Assembly: GCF_000025525.1 (NCBI RefSeq)
Contig: NC_013887.1
Span: 754,729 to 818,728, forward strand
Direction: 5' to 3'
DNA from: Methanocaldococcus sp. FS406-22
GTDB taxonomy: Archaea > AGJL01 > Methanococci > Methanococcales > Methanocaldococcaceae
Length of the DNA stretch: 64,000 nucleotides
Shown one piece after another: positions 28,712 to 50,804 of this stretch. The notes under the pieces are model-generated. The model was not told the DNA's origin and ran no database searches. It saw only the letters and a list, made by a program, of their open reading frames with translations. Position 1 is the first letter of the stretch; the number at the start of each line of letters is the position of its first letter. The position numbers were made by a program, and so were the translations under genes.

Positions 28712-31438
<2,727 letters not shown>

Positions 31439-31549
31439 TTAATTTTTATAATAATAATTTTCCTCCCTGGAGATAATATACCGTTGAGGTTCTATATATA
31501 CTTTTCGGTTTTGTTCATGTTTATGGCACATCAAAACATAAAGTTGTAT

Positions 31550-32266
31550 TTATTTATAGAAATACATTGCAATTATTTTATCTGCCCTTATGTATATCTC
31601 CCCAATATCACAGTCTTTTTCCAGTGGTTCGATGACTATAAATGATGTGCCAAATAATTCCTTATTTTCTTTTAGTCTTCCAATTTCTTCCACTGTATTA
31701 TTAACAGTCTCATAAACTATCTTAACTCTAATATCCTCTTCTTCTGGTTCTTCTTTCAATTCAACTTGTGTAAAGTCAGTTACTCTAACAGGTCCAGTTG
31801 GAGTTGTGCTAACAACTACAAATGTTAAAGTAGTTTCTAAAACTTCAATAGTAACCTTTGAACCTTTGCTTAATACTCGTCCTAATATCTTCATCTTAAC
31901 AAAGTCCTCAAATCCAGGACTAAATCTAATTGGCTGAGTAGGAGTTAGAATGATTTCTTCTGCTTCTTTAAGTTCTATTTTTTTAACCTTTACTTTATCT
32001 CCAATAGCTACCCCAGCATTTTGCCTTAAATAACCATCAATTCTGATAATTCCTTTTCCAGCATCTTCTAAGAAGCCCCTATAAGCTATGGCATAAGTTT
32101 TTCCTTTTTGTCCTTCAATCTCAATAACATCTCCTGGTTTTAAGCCCAATTCCTCCATTATGTAGGGATCTATTCTTGCAATACCCCTCCCTACATCTCC
32201 TGGATATGCTTCATCAACTTCCAGCTCTTTAATTAATTCTTCTGATTCTTCAGGAATTTTTGACAT
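31550..32266 (-). CDS. Stand-alone Cdc48 N-domain fused to a novel C-terminal domain
   Basis: 238 residues. Residues about 12-170 are nearly identical to the N-domain of the neighbouring Cdc48 ([71 protein letters not shown]). Both AAA modules are missing. The last 65 residues (VKIVYETVNNTVEEIGRLKENK ... IYIRADKIIAMYFYK) do not match Cdc48 and look like a small alpha/beta domain. The gene lies 126 bp upstream of cdc48 on the same strand. It might compete for or deliver Cdc48 adaptors and substrates; this is inference. Confidence 0.85.
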   Translation of the reverse strand: MSKIPEESEELIKELEVDEAYPGDVGRGIARIDPYIMEELGLKPGDVIEIEGQKGKTYAIAYRGFLEDAGKGIIRIDGYLRQNAGVAIGDKVKVKKIELKEAEEIILTPTQPIRFSPGFEDFVKMKILGRVLSKGSKVTIEVLETTLTFVVVSTTPTGPVRVTDFTQVELKEEPEEEDIRVKIVYETVNNTVEEIGRLKENKELFGTSFIVIEPLEKDCDIGEIYIRADKIIAMYFYK

Positions 32267-32283: not shown

Positions 32284-32637
32284 TTATTCTGGAATATCCA
32301 ATATATGAAACTGATAAACCCTTGTAAATCCACAGTTTCTACATCTTACAATCATCTTCGTTTCTGTTATTGCTATATCTTGGATAGCCTCTTTTTTACA
32401 GTTGAAGCATACAGCATTTTTCTCTAAAAACCATGGCTCATATTTGTGCTGTCTGTTTTTTTCATCTTCAATTATGCTTTCATCTTCAATCCCCACCCTT
32501 CTTAAGATATAATATCTCGTAGCTCCACAGTTAGAGCACTTAACAAACGCCTGGTTTGTATAAATCTCAATTATCTGTTCTGCTTCTTTCTTACAATTAA
32601 AGCAGGTGGTTAATTTTTTTAATGTCCATTTTTCCAT
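32284..32637 (-). CDS. Double zinc-ribbon protein
   Basis: 117 residues from the ATG following TTGGTGATTTT. Two similar halves each carry a CxxC pair set: CFNCKKEAEQIIEI ... VKCSNCGATRYYILRR and CFNCKKEAIQDIAI ... VRCRNCGFTRVYQFHIL. Each half should bind one zinc. The internal duplication is clear. Function is unknown; it immediately precedes the N-domain protein gene (17 bp) and may be co-transcribed with it. Confidence 0.75.
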   Translation of the reverse strand: MEKWTLKKLTTCFNCKKEAEQIIEIYTNQAFVKCSNCGATRYYILRRVGIEDESIIEDEKNRQHKYEPWFLEKNAVCFNCKKEAIQDIAITETKMIVRCRNCGFTRVYQFHILDIPE

Positions 32638-32760
32638 AAAATCACCAAATATTAGATTCCCCCACTTTACCAAATACATTAATAATTTATGTGTGTTATA
32701 CTATATATACACTTTTTGATTTATCATTTATATAATTGTATATTTAATTTGAGGGAAATT

Positions 32761-49388: not shown

Positions 49389-50681
49389 TTATCTATATAA
49401 AACATCTAAGTGTGCTGGTTCTTTAACTTTAACTTTCTTCTTCTCCATAATCTTCTCAACTGCTTTTTTGAAATCTTCCATTGTTACATAGTCTCTAAGT
49501 TCTCTAATTGCGTTCATCCCTGCCTCTGTACAGATTGCCTTTAATTCAGCCCCTACACATCCCTCAGTCATCTTAGCTATTTCCTCCAAATTAACATCTT
49601 CAGCTAAGTTCATCTTTCTTGTGTGTATCTTTAATATCTCTAATCTACCTTTCTCATCAGGGGCTGGAACTTCAATAATTCTATCAAATCTTCCAGGTCT
49701 TAATATTGCTGGGTCTAAGATATCTGGTCTGTTTGTGGCTCCAATTATCTTAACATCTCCTCTCGCATCGAATCCATCCATCTCTGCCAACAACTGCATT
49801 AATGTTCTCTGAACTTCTCTATCTCCACCAGTTAAAGCGTCTGTTCTTTTTGCAGCAATAGCATCAATTTCATCTATAAATATGATTGATGGTGCTTTTT
49901 CTTTAGCTAATTTGAATATATCTTTAACTAATGAAGCTCCTTCTCCAATAAACTTCTTAACTAATTCAGAACCAACAACCCTTATAAATGTTGCATTTGT
50001 TTCTGTAGCAACTGCCTTAGCCAATAAAGTCTTACCAGTTCCTGGAGGCCCATATAAAAGGATACCTTTTGGTGGTTCAATTCCAACCTTTTCAAACAAC
50101 TCTGGATGTTTCAATGGAAGTTCAACAACTTCTCTAATCTCTTGTATTTGCTTATCTAATCCACCAATATCTTCATATCTAACATTTGGTCTCTCATCAA
50201 CTTCCATTGCTTTAGCCCTATAATCCTTATTTTCTGGCAATACATCAACAACTGTCAATGTTTGCTGATTTAAACAAACTCTCTTTCCAGGGGCTAAATC
50301 CTCTGGATTTACAAAGTGAGAGACATTAACTAAGAAACTTGGTCCAGTAGAGCTTTTAACAACTACTTTTCTCTCCCCTACTTTATCAACTACAGTCCCA
50401 ACTATCAATGGAGGAACTCTCATTCTGTCTAATTCTCTTCTTAAAATTTCATTTTCTTTCATTAGCTGTAAATTCTCTCTTTCAAGTTCCTTTTTTTCTA
50501 ATTCTAATTTTAGTATTCTACTTTCTAATTCTGCAATAACTGCTTTTTCTTTTAGCTGTTCTTTAAGTAAATCATTTTTTAAGTTAGAATCATCACTTAT
50601 TTCCTTTTCTTCTTTAAATTCTTCAGTAAATGCTTTCTTTTCTTTCTTCAATTCAGTTGAGATAAATTCTTCAAAAACCAT
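49389..50681 (-). CDS. pan: Proteasome-activating nucleotidase PAN
   Basis: 430 residues from the ATG after TTGGTGATAATT, the known M. jannaschii length. Residues about 30-90 form the N-terminal coiled coil, followed by the OB domain ([24 protein letters not shown]). The AAA module has GPPGTGKT and [14 protein letters not shown]. The C-terminus ends LYR, an HbYX motif that docks into the 20S core and opens its gate. Confidence 0.97.
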
Positions 50682-50804
50682 AATTATCACCAAGTATGTC
50701 CAAGTTAATGGAGAGCTGTATAATCATCATACTCATTAATCTATTATAGGTTATCATTTATATACGTATGTTATAATAAAAATTCTTATATTTAAATTTT
50801 GTGT

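Follow-up and report, generated by a model that had tools for sequence, protein, structure and literature searches.

A stand-alone paralogue of the Cdc48 N-domain is encoded beside cdc48 in Methanocaldococcus sp. FS406-22, at positions 31550..32266 (minus strand) of the 64,000-nucleotide stretch of DNA analysed here (the window). On the evidence of its reading frame, its sequence and its Pfam matches, this protein of 238 residues, which we call SHORT, is a complete Cdc48 N-domain, with the double-psi barrel and the second N subdomain and with neither AAA ring. The frame begins with an ATG start codon and is open throughout.

The N-domain copy and its locus

Residues 14–98 of SHORT (31973..32227, minus strand) match the Pfam family CDC48_N (PF02359; Nn, the double-psi beta-barrel) with an E value of 1.1e-31 and a score of 109.3 bits against a cut-off of 35.1, and residues 114–177 (31736..31927, minus strand) match CDC48_2 (PF02933; Nc) with an E value of 4.4e-18 and 65.1 bits against a cut-off of 22.4, which places both segments in their families. 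A profile search of the 238-residue protein found no match to the AAA models of Pfam, in agreement with a preliminary description of this DNA that had reported both AAA rings missing. Membership of the CDC48 family of AAA ATPases (TIGR01243) calls for two AAA modules and a whole-protein score of 802.65 bits. SHORT scores 242.1 bits, with a match that stops at profile position 188 of 733, and is thus not a CDC48 family AAA ATPase.

The likely parent gene, identified by its open reading frame and Pfam matches, encodes the resident Cdc48 of 903 residues (28712..31423, minus strand). SHORT is identical to it at 150 of 197 positions over the full match (76%, E 7e-97), and the 151-residue core that begins at GDVGRG is 87.4% identical in protein and 85.7% in DNA, so that the initial estimate of close to 85 percent is fair for the core. 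SHORT therefore shares with archaeal Cdc48/VAT (TIGR01243) an Nn plus Nc N-domain that is 76–87% identical to the resident protein, but it differs in the absence of the D1 and D2 AAA rings. An AlphaFold2 model of SHORT, made with 20 sequences from the window and the compared loci as input, has pLDDT values mostly above 90 at residues 11–170 and below 50 at residues 176–238; the fold is confident over Nn and also covers Nc. The model superposes on p97/Cdc48 N-domain structures with Z scores of about 19–22 and an rmsd of mostly 2–3 Å over ~160 residues. The fold predicted for SHORT is thus that of a normal Cdc48 N-domain.

The resident Cdc48 is similar in length to that of most congeners, where frames have 899–918 residues; in other Methanococcales they have about 730–815. 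Its residues ~690–850 (window 28712–29351) resemble a coiled-coil insertion before the C-terminal helix. In three congeners (G013, G003 and G009; loci L052, L053 and L054) Cdc48 carries a roughly 390-residue intein-like insertion in D2, between KWVGES and SEKAIREIF, which is absent from the Cdc48 of the window. A second AAA protein of 434 residues (49389–50693) is Cdc48 D-domain-like and is probably PAN.

In the congeners, a zinc-ribbon gene and cdc48 are adjacent, 61–201 bp apart, with a conserved TATA-like stretch between them. SHORT occupies this gap, between the zinc-ribbon gene (32284..32679, minus strand) and the Cdc48 promoter region, whereas the congeners have the gap alone. The conserved Cdc48 upstream region, with the TATA-like stretch AGTATATATAGAACCTCAACGG, remains intact between SHORT and Cdc48 (31424..31530, minus strand) and is 85% identical to that of the congener G007 over ~100 nt. 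Because SHORT lies 17 nt behind the stop codon of the zinc-ribbon gene and the Cdc48 upstream region follows it, the zinc-ribbon transcript probably carries SHORT as well. The zinc-ribbon protein itself is uncharacterised, contains two ribbons and is conserved beside Cdc48 across the genus; its match to Elf1-like proteins is weak (E 2.6e-6, below the cut-off). Together, the open reading frame, the identity to Cdc48, the Pfam domains and the comparison of loci support the earlier proposal of a partial duplication without the ATPase.

A second Cdc48 N-domain was found in one of the 14 Methanocaldococcus genomes searched, the 1.77-Mb host genome. The preliminary description had reasoned that absence from all other strains, together with frameshifted copies, would point to a transient duplication. 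The first half of this pattern is what we see, since SHORT is absent from 13 of 13 congeners; the second half is not, as none of them contains a frameshifted or stop-containing copy. Stand-alone Cdc48 N-domains are likely to be rare among archaeal genomes: in 294 such genomes, the short frames among the matches listed lie mostly near contig ends.

The C-terminal tail

The tail of SHORT comprises the 64 residues after ELKEEP, and the preliminary description had presented it as a new and unrelated domain of 65 residues. The lack of relatives holds for the end of the tail only. The segment TVEEIGRLKE (31667..31696, minus strand) resembles the linker and D1 entry of Cdc48, with 20 of 30 nt identical. 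The TIGR01243 score also rises by 8 bits when SHORT residues 177–204 are added, and the profile score of the tail was reached by 21 of 3000 shuffled tails. The alignment, profile score and shuffles make a moderate case for the start of the tail being a decayed Cdc48 linker. By contrast, the last 38 codons and the stop (NKELFG...MYFYK; 31550..31666, minus strand) are an orphan for which no relative was detected, and AlphaFold2 gives no confident fold that would mark the tail as a domain.

The tail has the composition of a gene. Its codon score in frame is 0.344 per codon, compared with a median of 0.326 for real genes and negative scores in the other frames, and a run of 64 stop-free codons is improbable under base shuffling (P 0.0007). 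Searches with the tail returned no match in Pfam, PHROGs, phages, plasmids, viral_contigs or genome_contigs, and nothing besides itself at E <0.001 in the 294 archaeal genomes, so that the suggested stand-alone family was not found in any of the sequence databases or genomes searched. A weak match in NCBIfam (E 0.075) and matches in the PDB (E 0.003–0.6; pentatricopeptide repeats and RsgI9) were judged to be due to chance. The last 38 residues do not align significantly with frame-shifted or gapped Cdc48 (P 0.06–0.68). Likewise, the tail was rejected as a derivative of the 3' end of the zinc-ribbon gene, which a simple tandem duplication would have produced (DNA P 0.25–0.88, with no convincing protein frame). 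At the other end of the protein, the N-terminal extension of SHORT has a 15-nt match with one mismatch to the zinc-ribbon tail of G006 (P 0.0005; P 0.12 with the resident gene), a likeness that is at most suggestive.

Divergence, selection and probable gene conversion

Estimated by NG86, dS is 0.58 between SHORT and the resident Cdc48 and 0.47 between SHORT and G007, which is the size of interspecies divergence within the genus. Branch values of dN and dS were solved from the three-way NG86 distances among SHORT, Cdc48 and G007. The SHORT branch has a dN of about 0.06, a dS of about 0.26 and a dN/dS of about 0.2; dN/dS on the Cdc48 branch is about 0.02, so that constraint on SHORT is about ten times weaker. 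These values point to relaxed but clearly purifying selection on the N-domain of SHORT. With its open frame, gene-like codon usage in the tail and this dN/dS, SHORT does not look like a pseudogene, and the ratio and the normal codon usage support the original suggestion that the duplicate has been retained.

Some of the relaxation falls at sites where it might be expected. Changes found only in SHORT, at positions invariant in 16 of 16 Cdc48s, include A57T, V61A, K104E, A108T, Q130R, G141E, G144E and A146T. Where the structural match ends, SHORT and p97 are offset by 14 residues, and in p97 numbering we take G141E, G144E and A146T to correspond to R155, M158 and A160. In p97, R155 sits in the interface between the N-terminal domain and D1 (PMC5102582). 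Relaxed constraint at SHORT positions 141, 144 and 146 is expected since SHORT has no D1.

One stretch of SHORT is much closer to the resident Cdc48 than the remainder. In the tract at 31749..31807 (minus strand; alignment nt 394–452) there is 1 difference in 59 nt, compared with 63 in the 393 nt before it, and over the same 59 nt the orthologues differ from the resident Cdc48 at 5–9 positions. Such a run of few differences between the two genes is unlikely by permutation (P 0.005), and two bases in the tract are common to SHORT and the resident Cdc48 and absent from four close relatives. Some 60 nt near the end of the N-domain part have been homogenised with Cdc48, probably through gene conversion. 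Inside the tract (31749–31807), two coding sites of the resident Cdc48 are unlike those of its close orthologues, and for this reason SHORT may have been the donor.

The occurrence of SHORT in one of 14 species, its relaxed evolution and its orphan tail, for which no family was found, also fit a gene on its way out. SHORT would then be a marginal duplicate, whether local or from an unsampled relative, with a stable but dispensable N-domain that persists because it is harmless and is occasionally converted by Cdc48. The conversion tract is compatible with this since conversion could slow the decay of SHORT without selection on function. However, the frame is intact despite divergence of interspecies size, dN/dS is well below 1 and codon usage in the tail is normal, and a gene that had gone without function for so long would be expected to show more decay. 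We therefore regard decay as a serious but rather doubtful explanation.

An arrival of SHORT from another Methanocaldococcus lineage, followed by local conversion, would be compatible with either functional reading, and we consider it unlikely. In its favour, the DNA identity of SHORT is higher with G007 (87.0%) than with the resident Cdc48 (85.7%), and maximum-likelihood trees place SHORT outside the pair formed by the resident Cdc48 and G012 (79–82% bootstrap for the pair). Nevertheless, a sister relationship of SHORT and the resident Cdc48 is not rejected by the AU test (p 0.107 and 0.184), the position beside cdc48 favours local duplication and no donor copy was found among the genomes searched.

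Possible roles of a free N-domain

The most likely role, which we propose tentatively, is that SHORT, a retained lineage-specific partial duplicate, modulates Cdc48 as a free N-domain. The 5' part of cdc48, covering the N-domain and probably the start of the linker, is present beside cdc48 in a second copy that lacks the ATPase rings and carries a short orphan coding tail. SHORT would be co-expressed with the zinc-ribbon gene. The copy would keep the surface that binds partners, with the surface that docks towards D1 changed, and would act in trans by sharing or competing for cofactors or substrates of Cdc48. We know of no N-domain cofactor of Cdc48 in Methanocaldococcus. The N-domain is the binding site of most Cdc48 cofactors (PMC4192671).

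SHORT can be compared loosely with two proteins that carry Cdc48-N-like domains outside the ATPase. In PH1500 of Pyrococcus horikoshii (2m3x, 4uzr), which has no ATPase, a domain resembling Cdc48 Nc precedes a short C-terminal part. The Nc part of SHORT matches PH1500 (4uzr/2m3x) by phmmer with an E value of 3.4e-4, which qualifies it as Nc-like, but the PH1500 chains have ~145 residues and the match is limited to Nc. The SHORT tail has no detectable sequence similarity to the PH1500 C-terminal part, and the models of the tail are of low confidence. The UT3 domain of Ufd1, a Cdc48 cofactor, has the architecture of the Cdc48 N-domain (PMC4192671). Ufd1 differs in being eukaryotic and in working with Npl4, whereas SHORT closely reproduces the N-domain of a Methanocaldococcus Cdc48 and is a candidate for Cdc48 binding.

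By analogy with these proteins, but evolved independently, SHORT could be an adaptor or tether whose N-domain binds clients or Cdc48 while the tail binds something else or oligomerises. We consider this improbable: the ATPase-less chains of PH1500 with their C-terminal part, the oligomerisation of that family into 12-bladed propellers (PMC9218822), the precedent of Ufd1 UT3 as a cofactor (PMC4192671) and a single-sequence model of the tail with one helix and four strands in the order beta-alpha-beta-beta-beta, to which a mean pLDDT of 51 lends little weight, speak for it, but the tail matches neither the PH1500 C-terminal part nor any family, has pLDDT values of about 50 or below and in part resembles a decayed linker. 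It is equally speculative that SHORT is an independently evolved archaeal trans cofactor of the Ufd1 type, derived from a duplicated N-domain of the organism's own Cdc48 to which a new tail was added, and that it tunes the choice of Cdc48 partners while the two copies still undergo gene conversion.

Given that PH1500 and Ufd1 carry Cdc48-N-like domains outside the ATPase, the idea itself is not new. What appears to be new, as far as the literature and databases show, is to find the resident N-domain closely copied beside cdc48, with a tail of its own. Should the gene be in decay, SHORT would be a lineage-specific duplicate of an ordinary kind, in which gene conversion has left a clear trace. 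In eukaryotes the partners of Cdc48 are well mapped, whereas very little is known of them in archaea. If it acts as a free N-domain, SHORT would offer a natural bait with which to catch the archaeal partners, and it would illustrate how N-domain cofactors of the Ufd1 kind may arise from Cdc48 itself.
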